Virus record (IMG/VR): IMGVR_UViG_3300009436_000125
Coordinates: 1 to 22,152 of that record
DNA from: a virus
Direction: 5' to 3' (one strand)
DNA: 22,152 nt
Shown here one piece after another: positions 165-17,525 of the stretch (the first letter of the stretch is position 1; each line of letters opens with the position of its first letter). Position numbers and translations under genes: made by a program. The notes under the pieces are model-generated. The model saw only the letters and a program-made list of their open reading frames with translations, had not been told where the DNA came from and did no database searches.

Positions 165-199
165 TTCAGAACCACTAATTAAAAATAGCAAGTTCAACA

Positions 200-223
200 G
201 CCCAGTAGGGCGCACATATTATG
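200..223 (+). repeat. 24-bp intergenic repeat, copy 1
   Basis: The core is GCCCAGTAGGGCG, followed by a C, ACA, a variable base and ATTATG. GCCC-AGTA-GGGC is a perfect 4-bp inverted repeat around a 4-base loop. The final ATG (221-223) is the start codon of the 62-residue gene. Copy 1 differs from copy 2 at 2 of 24 positions. No ORF with a start codon ends at the TAG inside this copy. Confidence 0.85.
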
Positions 224-409
224 ACAAAAGACCAAGAAATCGAAAACCTCAAAAAGACAGATGCATTTTACGAATGGTGGGATGCCGTAGGTAGCAGCAT
301 TCGACCTAAGAAAGGTCAAGATATGGAGGAACACGCAAAGAGGATTGCCCTAGTAGCTTGGCAGGATAGGGGGCTTCGTCTGGATAACGCAAATAACCAA
401 GCCCAGTAG
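221..409 (+). CDS. Early hypothetical protein, 62 aa
   Basis: A 62-residue charged, soluble protein (starts MTKDQEIENLKK, has the aromatic stretch DAFYEWWDAVGSSIRP, ends NNQAQ). No domain or motif that I recognise. The start codon is the last three bases of repeat copy 1, and the stop codon (407-409) is the TAG inside repeat copy 2, so the gene is exactly bounded by two copies of the repeat. There is no Shine-Dalgarno sequence; the leader is GCGCACATATT. Position among early genes suggests a dispensable host-interaction protein, but nothing in the sequence gives a function. Confidence 0.7.
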   Translation: MTKDQEIENLKKTDAFYEWWDAVGSSIRPKKGQDMEEHAKRIALVAWQDRGLRLDNANNQAQ

Positions 410-424
410 GGCGAACACATTATG
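401..424 (+). repeat. 24-bp intergenic repeat, copy 2
   Basis: Same core GCCCAGTAGGGCG, then AACACATTATG. The TAG at 407-409 ends the 62-residue gene. The terminal ATG (422-424) opens only a nine-codon frame (MNKIITNNT, stop at 449-451), and the HNH gene starts 33 bases further on. The next gene may therefore have lost, or never used, the start codon supplied by the repeat. Confidence 0.85.
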
Positions 425-457
425 AATAAAATAATAACCAATAACACATAACAAACT

Positions 458-931
458 ATGGAACAAAAAACAATATCAGTTAATGGAGTTGAGATCATTG
501 CTCACTCTGACGGGAGTATCACAAGACCTTTCTACGGGGAGGTTAAGCGAACGTTTGGTTATAATAGCAGCACAGGCTATAAGAAATTGGGTCTTGGCAA
601 TAAAATGTTTTCAATTCATCGCATAATTGCTCAAGCTCTGCATCCAGATTTCTCAGAGGAACTACAAGTCGACCACAAAAATGGTGACAAAGTTGACAAT
701 CGTATTGAAAACCTTCGTATGTTAACCGAAGAGCAACAGGATGAGTGGCAACTAGCCACTGACTACTGGATTGAGCTTACCCTCGAAAAGTACAAGGGGT
801 ACGACCCCGATGACCTAACCCAAGTATTTATGCGTGGCCCATTCGCTGGCTGGAGTGAGCGCATGGTGCTGGAGTTAGCTGTGAAGATGGATGACGCAAA
901 TACAAAAGTACCGAGACATAAAACCCAGTAG
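458..931 (+). CDS. HNH endonuclease with an extra C-terminal domain
   Basis: A 157-residue protein. Residues ~50-88 carry an HNH_3-type nuclease core: the segment FSIHRIIAQALHPDF is followed by LQVDHKNGDKVDNRIENLRM, with the D-H pair and the N...N...R..NL pattern of this family. Such proteins usually act as free-standing homing or DNA-nicking enzymes in phages. The N-terminal ~50 residues look like the beta-rich DNA-binding lead-in common in these proteins. From residue ~89 the protein continues for ~70 residues (DEWQLATDYWIELTLEKY onwards) with no HNH resemblance, possibly a fused early gene; an in-frame ATG at 719 lies at the junction. No SD sequence. The stop codon (929-931) is the TAG of repeat copy 3. 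Confidence 0.8.
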   Translation: MEQKTISVNGVEIIAHSDGSITRPFYGEVKRTFGYNSSTGYKKLGLGNKMFSIHRIIAQALHPDFSEELQVDHKNGDKVDNRIENLRMLTEEQQDEWQLATDYWIELTLEKYKGYDPDDLTQVFMRGPFAGWSERMVLELAVKMDDANTKVPRHKTQ

Positions 932-946
932 GGCGTACACATTATA
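923..946 (+). repeat. 24-bp intergenic repeat, copy 3
   Basis: ACCCAGTAGGGCG followed by TACACATTATA. It matches copy 2 at 21 of 24 positions. Its TAG (929-931) ends the HNH gene, but the terminal ATG of the other copies is ATA here and no gene starts, so this copy closes the repeat-bounded block before the long control region. Confidence 0.8.
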
Positions 947-1066
947 CAACAATATACACCCATATACACGAGGACTAAACTTCGCACTGATTCGTTTACT
1001 ATTGGCAGCAAGGGGGCTGCAAATACTCAAACGCACCTCCTGCTGCCCTCTGTAAATACCCTGTGC

Positions 1067-1086
1067 GGTGACAAATCAGTGACAAA
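1067..1086 (+). repeat. GTGACAAA double iteron, copy A
   Basis: The 20-mer GGTGACAAATCAGTGACAAA contains two GTGACAAA octamers whose starts lie 11 bases apart, about one helical turn. It recurs at 1304-1323 with a single mismatch. Related single elements are AGGTGACAAA at 1121-1130 and, on the other strand, ATTGTCACCT at 1218-1227 or nearby. Confidence 0.8.
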
Positions 1087-1160
1087 CATTGTCAAAACAG
1101 CTAAAACAAAGGCAAGTGCGAGGTGACAAAAAAAAGAAACTATCGTTACAAATCAATACG

Positions 1161-1188
1161 TTGACATAGCTTCAAAAAAAGTTAACAT
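1161..1188 (+). promoter_or_regulatory. Candidate host sigma70 promoter for the RNA polymerase gene
   Basis: A perfect -35 hexamer TTGACA (1161-1166), a 16-base A-rich spacer and TAACAT (1183-1188, 4 of 6 matches to TATAAT). Transcription would start near 1195, giving a leader of roughly 140 bases that contains the second double iteron. A host promoter just before the polymerase gene fits the T7 early programme. Confidence 0.5.
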
Positions 1189-1303
1189 ATTGCTCATGGG
1201 ATGGTAAATGTCTTTATTGTCACCTCTTGCCGTAACCCTATTGAAATATAAGCATTTTTAAACAAACACTTATCCGTTTTATCTCTAAGTATTTATTTGC
1301 TTA

Positions 1304-1323
1304 GGTGACAAATCACTGACAAA
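1304..1323 (+). repeat. GTGACAAA double iteron, copy B
   Basis: GGTGACAAATCACTGACAAA, identical to the copy at 1067-1086 except for one base, which changes the second octamer to CTGACAAA. It ends nine bases before the RNA polymerase ATG at 1333, where a bound protein or RNA-binding factor could affect initiation. Confidence 0.8.
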
Positions 1324-1332
1324 TAATTGACT

Positions 1333-3753
1333 ATGGACACACAGCTCACACAAGACGAACTCAACACTGACATGACCACCGTAGGCGTGGGACGCTACCG
1401 CAATAAGGTAGAGGGAGCCCGTGCTCGTGGTATGGAGAGTGAGACATCGTATGGTCAGCGGCTAATACGTGGTGCGTTACCTGCCTATATCAAGGCTATT
1501 GATGACGTAAAAACAAAGTGGCGTGGATTTAAGAACAAAGGGAGGTGGCAACTCGACCTCCTAGAGATGCCCTCCGATAAGATTGGGTTCCTTGTTATCC
1601 GTACTGTCTTAGACCAGCTCACACAGAACTCTAAGATGACCGCTATGTGTACCAAGGTAGGCAACGTTATCGACTACCAGCGTCGCTCAGAGCACCTTGT
1701 ACGTACCAACCCTAAAGGTGAAGGGATTGTTCTAGGGGCTACCCGTAAGAGCGGCTGGCAAGCTACCAAGAACCACATCCGCCTAAGCACCAAGCACGAG
1801 GTAGAGGGGGGACTCATGGAAGAGATCCCTTCTTGGACACGTAGAGACGTAGCAGCCACAGGACTCAACCTCGTAGAACTCCTTCGGGACGTCACAGGGA
1901 TTATTGAGTACAGGTTCATTACTGATACAGGCAGACGCAACCCTACAAGGTACGTCACGGCCTCTCCAGAGACCTTGAAGTGGATAGAAGAGTTCAACTA
2001 CCACAAGGAAATCATAAGCCCCTTCTGGCTCCCTACAGTGGATACACCGATGGAGTGGAAGAACGTGTGGGAAGGTGGATACAAGACAGAAGATACAGAC
2101 CTCCCCAAGCTTCCGTTCATCAAGTCAACCAACATGGATTTCCTACGTGGTATCGAAGGTAAGATTGAAGAGCCTATGGAGGCTTGTAACCTTATCCAGC
2201 AGACACCTTGGAAGATTAACGATGACGTCCTGAAGACAATGCAGTGGGCTTGGAAGAACTCCGTAAAGGTCGGTGGGCTGCCTAGCCGCGACGATGAAGT
2301 GATGCCTGACATCCCTGATGACTTCCACGATAACAAACTGAGCAACCTACAGTGGCGCACGATGGCTTCGGGTGTTCACAAGCGTAACATGAGCACACGC
2401 TCAAGACGCCTATTGGTAGCCAAGGTGCTTTACCTAGCAGAGAAGCTTACAGATAGTCGGTTCTTCTATCCGTCCCACTGTGACTTCCGAGGTCGTGTAT
2501 ATAACATCCCTGCCTTCCTAGGTATCCAAGGCCCTGATATGTGTCGTGGGCTTCTTCGGTTCGCTAGACCTCAACGTATTAAGACAGCAACAGACCGCAA
2601 GTGGTTAGCTATTCAAGGTGCTAACACTTGGGGCTACGATAAAGTCACACTCGACCAGCGCGCTGAGTGGGCTGAGAACTTTTCCAAGGACGCCATCCGC
2701 ATCGCAGCAGATCCTACCAAGGAGCTACTATGGACAAAGGCGGGCGACCCTTGGCAATTCCTTGCGTGGTGCTTTGAATGGGCCACACTACAGAACACGG
2801 GTAAGCTAGATACCTACCTCCCAGTGAATATGGACGCTACCAATAATGGGCTCCAGATTCTCTCTATGCTTACCCGTGACCCCTACGGGATGACTGCTAC
2901 GAATGTGTTACCTACAGACACACCAGCAGACATCTACGGGGTGGTCGCCAAACAAGCAGAGGTAATTCTAAGAGCACAGGCAGCGGAGGGTGATGCTATC
3001 TCTAATGCTTGGGTCAACTTTGGCATAGACCGTAAGACAACCAAGAGACCCGTCATGTGTTACTCGTATGGTCTTACTGAATACAGTAATCGCTTGTATA
3101 TCTCTGATTGGTATGAAGACCAGATACACGGTGAGGGACGCACCAGACCTTTTGATGAGAAGGAGAAGTACCTTGCCATCCACGTGCTTGCTAAAGCCGT
3201 CTGGAAGGGCATTGAGAGCGTCCTAGAGAAGCCTAAGGAATGTATGAAGTGGTTCCAAGATTGTGCCGCTATACTTACTGAGGCCGATCTGCCTGTGTCT
3301 TGGGTGTCACCTAGTGGCTTCCCTGTTCACCAGCAGTATTTCAACTTCACAAGTAAGAACATCAAGACTTGGATTAGCGGAACAGCTACTCACATTCGTT
3401 TCCGTGAGAACGACGATAAGCTTTCCAAGGTTCGCCAGCGGAATGGAGTGAGCCCGAACTTTGTGCACTCACTGGATGCTGCGGCTCTCCATAAAACAGT
3501 CATCAAAGCCAACAAAGATGAGGGTATTTACGACTTTGCTTTCATCCACGATAGCTACGGAACACACGCTACAGGATGCGAAGCTTTAAGTAAAAGTTTG
3601 CGAGATGTATTTATTTCTACTTTTAGTGTTGACCTCCTGCGTGATTGGAAACATCAATTAGAACAGCAATCGGGATTAGAGCTTCCTGAGCCGCCAGAAT
3701 ATGGCACTGCTGACATCTCCAAAATTAAAGATAGCACGTATTTCTTCAGTTAG
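1333..3753 (+). CDS. T7-like single-subunit DNA-directed RNA polymerase
   Basis: An 806-residue enzyme (T7: 883) that transcribes the phage middle and late genes from phage-specific promoters. The catalytic landmarks of T7 RNA polymerase are present: motif A with D501 (PVNMDATNNG), the TKRPVMCYSYG helix with K571 and Y579 (T7 K631, Y639), and motif C AFIHDSYGT with H739 and D740 (T7 H811, D812). CDFRGRVYNIPAF and NGVSPNFVHSLDAA are further signatures, and the protein ends in the family-typical FFS. I chose ATG 1333; an in-frame TTG at 1327 would add two residues. Neither has an SD sequence. The shorter length lies mostly in the N-terminal domain, which in T7 contacts promoter and nascent RNA. 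Likely expressed from the host-type promoter at 1161. Confidence 0.97.
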   Translation: MDTQLTQDELNTDMTTVGVGRYRNKVEGARARGMESETSYGQRLIRGALPAYIKAIDDVKTKWRGFKNKGRWQLDLLEMPSDKIGFLVIRTVLDQLTQNSKMTAMCTKVGNVIDYQRRSEHLVRTNPKGEGIVLGATRKSGWQATKNHIRLSTKHEVEGGLMEEIPSWTRRDVAATGLNLVELLRDVTGIIEYRFITDTGRRNPTRYVTASPETLKWIEEFNYHKEIISPFWLPTVDTPMEWKNVWEGGYKTEDTDLPKLPFIKSTNMDFLRGIEGKIEEPMEACNLIQQTPWKINDDVLKTMQWAWKNSVKVGGLPSRDDEVMPDIPDDFHDNKLSNLQWRTMASGVHKRNMSTRSRRLLVAKVLYLAEKLTDSRFFYPSHCDFRGRVYNIPAFLGIQGPDMCRGLLRFARPQRIKTATDRKWLAIQGANTWGYDKVTLDQRAEWAENFSKDAIRIAADPTKELLWTKAGDPWQFLAWCFEWATLQNTGKLDTYLPVNMDATNNGLQILSMLTRDPYGMTATNVLPTDTPADIYGVVAKQAEVILRAQAAEGDAISNAWVNFGIDRKTTKRPVMCYSYGLTEYSNRLYISDWYEDQIHGEGRTRPFDEKEKYLAIHVLAKAVWKGIESVLEKPKECMKWFQDCAAILTEADLPVSWVSPSGFPVHQQYFNFTSKNIKTWISGTATHIRFRENDDKLSKVRQRNGVSPNFVHSLDAAALHKTVIKANKDEGIYDFAFIHDSYGTHATGCEALSKSLRDVFISTFSVDLLRDWKHQLEQQSGLELPEPPEYGTADISKIKDSTYFFS

Positions 3754-15363: not shown

Positions 15364-15466
15364 GTTCATCGAGGAGCTAGACCAACACGAGTTTAGCTCC
15401 TCTGAACGGGAAACCATCGGGGACATCCTCGACTACGTGAATGATCTAGAAAACAGTGTTAAGTAA
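15272..15466 (+). CDS. Small lipoprotein, candidate outer-membrane spanin
   Basis: A 64-residue product with a lipoprotein signal: K3 and a hydrophobic core (LQLVVTVSTALVL) before MSGC, with C21 as the lipidated residue. The mature part is about 44 residues, charged and helical (RIPEFIEELDQHEFSSSERE), rather than proline-rich as in lambda Rz1. The start lies within the candidate inner spanin gene in another reading frame, and the end overlaps the muramidase gene by 11 bases. A diderm host and a spanin-type envelope fusion step are inferred from this pair. Alternative: an unrelated phage lipoprotein. Confidence 0.65.
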   Translation: MLKNLQLVVTVSTALVLMSGCVTLRESRIPEFIEELDQHEFSSSERETIGDILDYVNDLENSVK

Positions 15467-15995
15467 ACTAATAGTTCTATCCCTTTTGTTGTTCGGGTGC
15501 TGCCAAGCGGACACCTCAATAACCCTTAAAGACTTCGTTAAGTTAATCCCTCAGTGGGAAGTCTACCCTGATAGTCCTCACACAATAGTGGGTGACAACG
15601 GGGCTGCTTATGGTCACTACCAGATACACAAGGTAATGGTGGACGATTACAACCGTATTACTGGTTCTAAAGCCTCCCATACGGACGTATTTGACCCAGC
15701 GTTCGGCCAGAGGGTCGCTTATGCTGTTCTGAAGCACTATGCGAAGCACATACAAGCCTCTGGTGTTACACCTACGGCTGACCACATGCTGTTCATCTGG
15801 AATGGTGGAGGTAGTGCTTGGAAGCGCGTAGATAATCCCATCAATGACCAGAAGCAAATCAATCTAAACAGGTATCGAGCAAAGGCTCTACCTATCATCA
15901 ACCAATTTCGTTCCCAACTGCAAGAAGTAACAGCTTTGCCCTCCGAGGAGGATAACCTAGCAGTGAACCAAGCGAGTAAGAACAACCAACTGTAG
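15456..15995 (+). CDS. Exported lysozyme/transglycosylase-type endolysin, 179 aa
   Basis: The GTG start at 15456 overlaps the lipoprotein gene by 11 bases. The first ~18 residues (MLSKLIVLSLLLFGCCQA) form a signal peptide, possibly a lipobox with L12-F-G-C15. The remainder has a lysozyme-like fold pattern: QWEVYPDSPHTIVGDNGAAY with E35 in the place of the catalytic Glu, YGHYQIHKVMVDDYNRITG, FDPAFGQRVAYAVL, and HMLFIWNGGGSAWKR. Related transglycosylase-like phage proteins have GDxGxAYGxxQIHxxVxDDxN. It should cleave peptidoglycan in the periplasm after export by the host Sec system. T7 instead uses a cytosolic amidase, gp3.5, which is not seen in this window. Confidence 0.75.
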   Translation: MLSKLIVLSLLLFGCCQADTSITLKDFVKLIPQWEVYPDSPHTIVGDNGAAYGHYQIHKVMVDDYNRITGSKASHTDVFDPAFGQRVAYAVLKHYAKHIQASGVTPTADHMLFIWNGGGSAWKRVDNPINDQKQINLNRYRAKALPIINQFRSQLQEVTALPSEEDNLAVNQASKNNQL

Positions 15996-17144: not shown

Positions 17145-17525
17145 TTGAAAGAAACTAAACAGTGTCGCATTTGCAAAGAGGACAAGCACCTCAGCGAATA
17201 CCATGTTCACAGTCATAAGACTGGTAAGTTACGCAGTGAGTGTAAGGCTTGTAGACGTAGCAATGATCTCAACCGCACTTATGGGATTAATGCAGATGAA
17301 TATAATGCCCGCCTAGAATCCCAAAAAGGTGTTTGCGCTATCTGTGGTACTGACACGCCATCCCCGACCCAAGAAGAAACTCACAAACACTTATTCGTTG
17401 ACCATTGTCACACCTCAGGAGCCGTTAGAGGTCTCCTCTGTAGTGCCTGTAACACTGGTCTTGGACTTTTCAAAGACAACCCTGAGCGCCTAAAAGCCGC
17501 CATTCACTATTTAACAAAGAAGTAA
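17145..17525 (+). CDS. Endonuclease VII-like HNH homing nuclease
   Basis: A 126-residue protein, start TTG at 17145. It has two cysteine pairs in an N-terminal zinc region (CRICKEDK, CKACRRSN), a third pair in the core (CAICGTD and CSACNTG), and the recombination endonuclease VII signature LFVDHCHTSGAVRGLLCSAC, then GLGLFKDNPERLKAAIHYL. The D-H residues bind the catalytic metal. These proteins act in phages as free-standing homing enzymes. It sits just after the capsid terminator and one base before the tail tube A gene. A CCCACTATC sequence at 17133-17141 may be a phage promoter. The unusual TTG start and absence of SD suggest low expression. Confidence 0.85.
   Translation: MKETKQCRICKEDKHLSEYHVHSHKTGKLRSECKACRRSNDLNRTYGINADEYNARLESQKGVCAICGTDTPSPTQEETHKHLFVDHCHTSGAVRGLLCSACNTGLGLFKDNPERLKAAIHYLTKK

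Follow-up and report, generated by a model that had tools for sequence, protein, structure and literature searches.

What does a short repeat do that recurs at the borders of early genes and supplies their stop and start codons, and are genes exchanged at it? This question was raised by a 22-kb fragment of an uncultured marine T7-like phage (22,152 nucleotides, hereafter the window), in which three copies of a 24-bp repeat lie upstream of the gene for a single-subunit RNA polymerase (RNAP; Table 1).

Repeat and cassette genes in the window

The three copies described in a sequence-only reading of this DNA were all recovered, with neighbouring copies identical at 22/24 and 21/24 positions, as that reading had it, and the outer pair at 20/24. 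With up to two mismatches allowed, the core occurs three times in the window against 0.28 expected, and it never reached three occurrences in 100 shuffles of the window. No fourth copy is present in the 22 kb, and none precedes the middle or late genes. The codons assigned to the repeat also hold: the TAG within it stops both the 62-aa ORF and the HNH ORF, and the ATG of copy 1 starts the 62-aa ORF.

Table 1. Repeat array and adjoining RNAP region of the window.
Feature	Position	Strand	Description
Shortened left border	169..199	+	GAACCACTAATTAA-AAATAGCAAGTTCAACA; deleted form of the 56-nt element AACCACTAATTAACGTGTCGAGGGACGAGATCACCGTTCAATAGCAAGTTCAACA
Repeat copy 1	200..223	+	Hairpin GCCC-AGTA-GGGC (200-211); start codon ATG (221-223)
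Cassette gene 1	221..409	+	62 aa, family F16; homologue between repeats in L038/L041, in another order
Repeat copy 2	401..424	+	TAG (407-409) is the stop of cassette gene 1; ATG opens only nine codons
Cassette gene 2	458..931	+	Family F5, with an HNH_3 domain (E=1e-12) fused in front
Repeat copy 3	923..946	+	Last copy of the array; TAG (929-931) stops gene 2; ATA replaces ATG
Right border	947..974	+	CAACAATATACACCCATATACACGAGG..., common to the last copies of L005, L006, L030 and L046
Noncoding RNAP leader	1068..1323		Paired GTGACAAATCA[C/G]TGACAAA motifs and TTGACA-16-TAACAT
RNAP	about 1333..3753		Single-subunit RNA polymerase

The 62-aa product of cassette gene 1 has no Pfam match. Its homologue in L038 (2852-3115 in the oriented contig) contains the 11 residues AYGHYQIHKVM, which are also found in a small lysozyme-like protein of the window (15456-15995). 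The second gene had been read as one HNH gene. Its HNH part stands, but the ORF is a fusion rather than a single gene, and its final ~67 aa are a cassette gene, which forms an independent ORF of 71 aa downstream of the repeat in L035 and is also free-standing in L006/L067 (at a contig edge, after ACATTATG). The nine-codon stub behind copy 2 is present because the HNH_3 domain was joined to the front of this F5 cassette gene. The in-frame combination of HNH_3 and the 67-aa cassette protein resembles a homing-type gene that invaded a cassette. Elsewhere in the window, a gene with a Recombination endonuclease VII domain (17145-17525) is inserted between capsid and tail genes.

Distribution and anatomy of the repeat

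An exact scan of IMG/VR for CCCAGTAGGGCGNACA returned 52 stretches. Many have a lone match that is due to chance, while about 20 hold several spaced copies of the longer consensus ACAGCCCARTAGGGCGCACACATTATG. Scans with a variable loop and a scan with the 3' half only gave the same contig set and a few new contigs; the motif is highly specific, the 3'-half scan yielding only family members. Altogether, the IMG/VR scans gave about 84 non-redundant copies on some 35 contigs. By protein comparison these belong to at least five unrelated groups, T7-like, T4-like, ERF-type and PolA-type phages among them. Group A (22 contigs) has a DnaB helicase and an exonuclease, group B a family A DNA polymerase (PolA-type) and a primase, group C baseplate proteins, and group E a T7-like head-tail connector and terminase; group D consists of the window and L006/L067, and L011, L142 and L148 are further single carriers. 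The ORFs scanned in carriers include two ERF recombinase genes and T4-type baseplate, gp32, gp59 and gp19 families. Groups A–E have little in common apart from the repeat and its cassettes. About 39 small gene families are tied to the repeat, mostly with no assigned function; family F1 (L011, L016, L022, L038, L068) contains GDHxGxH-type short repeats in varying number. Neither similar DNA nor the repeat was found in the INPHARED collection (50,697 phage records), and four matches to the repeat pattern among genome_contigs (L140, L141, L143, L144) look like chance.

The repeat consists of a hairpin, GCCC-RRYA-GGGC, followed by GCACACATT and ATG, and its consensus across the IMG/VR copies is AACA-GCCCARTAGGGCGCACACATTATG. 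Nine A/C-rich nucleotides separate the hairpin from the ATG, which lies at this fixed position in 70/84 cassette ORFs; the copies lacking it are mostly the last of their array. In the 48 copies not used for retrieving their contigs, conservation is 94–100% for the 3' arm and 81–94% for the 5' arm, and the second loop base is split between G and A. The loop is more variable than the stem, and in two copies it measures 3 nt above an unbroken stem. Folded in native context, 95% of 63 copies are predicted to form the stem (median pair probability 0.99), with the start region mostly open. No compensatory stem changes were found among the copies compared, so that common descent, instead of selection, could account for the hairpin. 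In about ten copies the 5' arm is lost or altered while the stretch from CARTAG onwards is retained, which shows the complete hairpin to be dispensable. The repeat has no Rfam match at the gathering threshold, and hits below it are at chance level only.

The stop codon proved less general than the sequence-only reading implied. Of some 70 non-duplicate copies, about 22 provide the upstream ORF with its stop through the in-repeat TAG, roughly the proportion expected for one frame in three, so that supplying a stop is optional and no fixed function. For the start codon, repeat-free homologues of cassette genes begin at the same Met, which shows the predicted ATG of the repeat to be the true start. 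The values for Shine-Dalgarno-like starts in groups A–D are 0.10–0.14, and start regions in the carrier phages are rich in A, with a T ahead of the ATG; ACACATTATG resembles a strong form of this ordinary start context. We infer that the repeat works as a translation-start module. Another hairpin, GGCCGTAAGGCCGACCTTACTATG, stands at the same distance from start codons but is limited to four contigs, where it precedes different genes (L059, L060, L068, L150).

Homology breaks and shared cassettes

All carrier contigs are metagenomic fragments. A comparison of the flanks of 100 copies gave 96 pairs alike only upstream, 96 alike only downstream and 16 alike on both sides, nearly all of the last from duplicate contigs; the pairs are not independent, many upstream pairs stemming from a common left border. 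The behaviour of the repeat was set against that of other gene starts on these contigs in a synteny control. Where downstream identity was at least 90%, the upstream sequence was alike at 74/82 other starts but at 0/10 repeat starts, and with the control restricted to small ORFs (45–130 aa) the contrast was 35/39 versus 0/10 (Fisher p=1.2e-7). Individual backbones show where similarity stops. L025 and L051 share 98% identity along 3.3 kb as far as the end of the helicase gene, and the match ends inside the repeat, with entirely different arrays beyond it. The backbones of L025, L016 and L051, 94–98% identical, likewise end at the repeat before their cassettes diverge. In L051 and L016, the terminal part of the same helicase gene holds two separate CAGTAG motifs, each the site of one join. 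These homology breaks lie no more than a few bases from the repeat.

Conversely, cassettes nearly identical in DNA (94–99%) are found in unrelated phages. F2 occurs in groups A and E and in L011 with 94–97% identity, F1 in groups A and B and L011, F5 in groups B, C and D, F7 in groups A and D, and F16 in group B and the window. Even a noncoding segment of 165 nt, bounded by two repeats, shows 99% identity between L006 (T7-like) and L030 (group A), the latter having one extra cassette between this segment and the next shared gene. Cassette order changes as well, being F16-F5 in the window versus F5-F16-F8-F1 in L038. The common repeats, the breaks at them, the same cassettes in unrelated phages and their altered order are observed directly, and support the view that phages of at least five unrelated groups swap small genes at a common repeat. 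The proposal of a cassette junction for gene swapping, made from the window, is thus strongly supported by the flank test, the synteny control and the backbone breaks, and would extend across unrelated phages.

The arrays also have conserved ends. The 56-nt left border lies upstream of the first copy in about ten contigs, as found by side-by-side comparison of L011, L015, L016, L018, L026, L031, L035 and L044 and by an exact scan. Six contigs have the right border after their last copy, and in L038 it is shortened; the genes past it differ between contigs, and L068 has the right-border block with the hairpin core absent. Further downstream, the RNAP leader of the window is conserved in relatives that have nothing in common with it upstream, and therefore marks a fixed edge of the variable region.

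Most relatives of this RNAP lack the repeat, including some 97–98% identical to it, which have other small genes at that place. Some of these small genes are homologues of cassettes with plain junctions such as AAGCACTATG, indicating that other joints exist beside the repeat and that the genes can both occur and move without it. Relatives with the same genes but no repeat, which the sequence-only reading had named as counting against its proposal, were thus found in part, for some of the cassette genes. In L061, L066, L069, L074 and L119, the RNAP leader holds a sequence resembling the 3' end of tRNA-Leu, and a tyrosine-recombinase-like gene was seen by eye upstream in several of these relatives, possibly together the attP region of a temperate T7-like phage.

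A probable start-associated linker and its alternatives

We give a probability of about 0.68 to the reading that the repeat serves as a start-associated linker, by which we mean a 5' module that is portable and doubles as homology for gene exchange. The module would comprise the 4-bp hairpin, the 9-nt start context typical of phages not relying on Shine-Dalgarno sequences, and the ATG, and would precede small accessory genes common to many unrelated phages, presumably of one host group. It would be retained for expression in the shared host, with portable homology as a by-product. Because all cassettes carry the same module, recombination would be possible at every one of them. Homologous or annealing recombination at the module, assisted by brief identities (CAGTAG, for example) where neighbouring genes end, could insert, delete, reorder or exchange genes, and each new junction would retain a functional start and, in many cases, a stop codon. 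On this view the hairpin and the start context would act in translation or mRNA handling, general phage recombination would do the joining, and the carriers would probably share a host. ERF and exonuclease genes are present in carriers, and annealing recombinases of the ERF type together with exonucleases would fit annealing recombination. Annealing or homologous recombination is also made likely by the absence of integrases, resolvases and transposases among 25 of the 29 Pfam families found, those listed for 71 ORFs of 14 partial carrier contigs; phage integrases occur in two carriers or relatives. Against the start-linker account stand the last copies lacking an ATG, which have no obvious role in translation, the cassette genes that move without the repeat, the lack of compensatory stem changes, the copies with a lost or altered 5' arm, and the non-independence of the pairs compared on metagenomic fragments.

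A purely regulatory repeat, serving as a translation start, as the site of an RNA-binding protein or in RNA processing (which the sequence-only reading had suggested for the hairpin), with mosaic flanks resulting from general turnover of accessory regions, would explain the fixed distance to the ATG and the conserved stem with its variable loop, and has precedents of the kind described for Start Associated Sequences (PMC3203893). We consider it unlikely, since general turnover does not predict that synteny is kept in small-gene pairs of the same contigs and lost at the repeats, or that the breaks fall within a few bases of them.

Integrons are arrays of small genes, each with a common site of hairpin potential (attC, at the 3' end), between conserved borders. 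The phage arrays resemble them in all three respects, and junctions with native genes at CAGTAG/CAATAG, as well as the retention of CARTAG when the 5' arm is lost, would suit a dedicated recombinase joining cassettes at the hairpin loop. However, the repeat is at the gene start and includes the ATG, the listed Pfam families of these partial contigs contain no integrase, the same genes also travel without the repeat, and a 6-bp match that also keeps a stop codon suffices for the junctions. Such an integron-like site-specific system is therefore improbable. The same low standing goes to a speculative extension, a gene-exchange code in which unrelated phages of one host group use a common recombination joint, with crossover at the hairpin loop by a shared host or phage enzyme; if true, it would be an integron spread over a phage community, trading small host-takeover genes.

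The start-associated linker that we prefer has relatives among known elements. Lambdoid phages have short conserved boundary or linker sequences at gene borders, thought to aid recombination of modules; these are alike as short border sequences but are lambdoid only and have no common start module. The sequence-only reading knew of no such described system, and our search of the open-licence literature likewise found none matching the repeat, but two elements close in kind exist, and neither fits fully. Promoter early stem-loops (PeSLs) of T4-type phages (Arbiol 2010 and Comeau 2014, as cited in PMC4503421) are repeated intergenic elements with a stem-loop before small early genes, and are held to mediate gene shuffling. 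They combine an early promoter with a terminator-like stem-loop and are described among related T4-like phages. The repeat shares with them the stem-loop, the short intergenic position before small genes and flanks that change at the element among relatives. It differs in including the start codon, in lacking a T-run after the stem or any coding-strand terminator called at the repeats, in being common to T7-like, T4-like and other phages, and in having no clear promoter, apart from a weak sigma-70-type match in copy 1.

A phage or host promoter, which had been suggested for the repeat, is very unlikely. Copy 1 scores a weak match to the sigma-70 consensus, the only one scanned (TCAACA-17-TATTAT, 9/12), but the same element in L018 has none, promoter-like sites are fewer than in shuffles (2 vs 3.6), and the repeat is missing before the window's middle and late genes. 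The -10 would overlap the start codon that repeat-free homologues use, and a promoter ending at the repeat ATG is unlikely because transcription would then begin inside the gene.

Start Associated Sequences (SAS/ESAS) of cluster K mycobacteriophages and Microbacterium cluster EF are, according to the SAS sections of PMC3203893 and PMC7302621, highly conserved 13-bp cores with complementary ends, placed just before the ATG of nonstructural genes in one orientation, sometimes with an upstream extension or overlapping the upstream stop codon, and containing AGGAG 3–7 bp from the start. The repeat also lies a few bases before start codons in a single orientation, but it has neither the AGGAG core, its hairpin ending 9 nt before the ATG, nor the SAS sequence GGGATAGGAGCCC; moreover, those sections place SASs within a cluster and report no role as breakpoints of gene exchange. 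Compared with PeSLs and SASs as these sources describe them, and with lambdoid boundaries, what is new is that the repeat is common to unrelated phages.

The joining of unrelated contigs through short repeats during assembly, conceivable for metagenomic contigs in which border and repeat reach 80 identical bases, is hardly tenable, as six arrays recur in the same order in a second metagenome at 97–100% identity, the repeat by itself falls short of the word length that assemblers usually employ, and cassettes of different contigs are often 80–97% alike rather than copies of one read set.

For the linker reading, the shared host is of particular interest. The only family-type match in cellular genomes, L142, belongs to a temperate phage whose contig encodes an integrase, a portal and a major head protein and was binned in an Opitutales MAG, a weak pointer to the host. 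This contig (L163-L165) is 64 kb long and has a single copy of the repeat, a gene for PAPS reductase and an ORF of 5322 aa. None of the remaining 114 Opitutales genomes sampled has the repeat, and none of 388 genomes of that phylum has the RNAP; the tRNA-Leu-like sequence of the relatives, compared along its length, is only about 80% like Opitutales tRNAs.

Gene sharing among phages of unrelated lineages is already known. A start-site linker with clean homology breaks would provide a concrete route by which small early genes pass between T7-like, T4-like and other phages. The roughly 39 families at the repeat are thereby flagged as candidates for roles in takeover or counter-defence, and the repeat itself may serve as a sequence tag for finding exchangeable host-takeover genes, and phages that share a host, in metagenomes.
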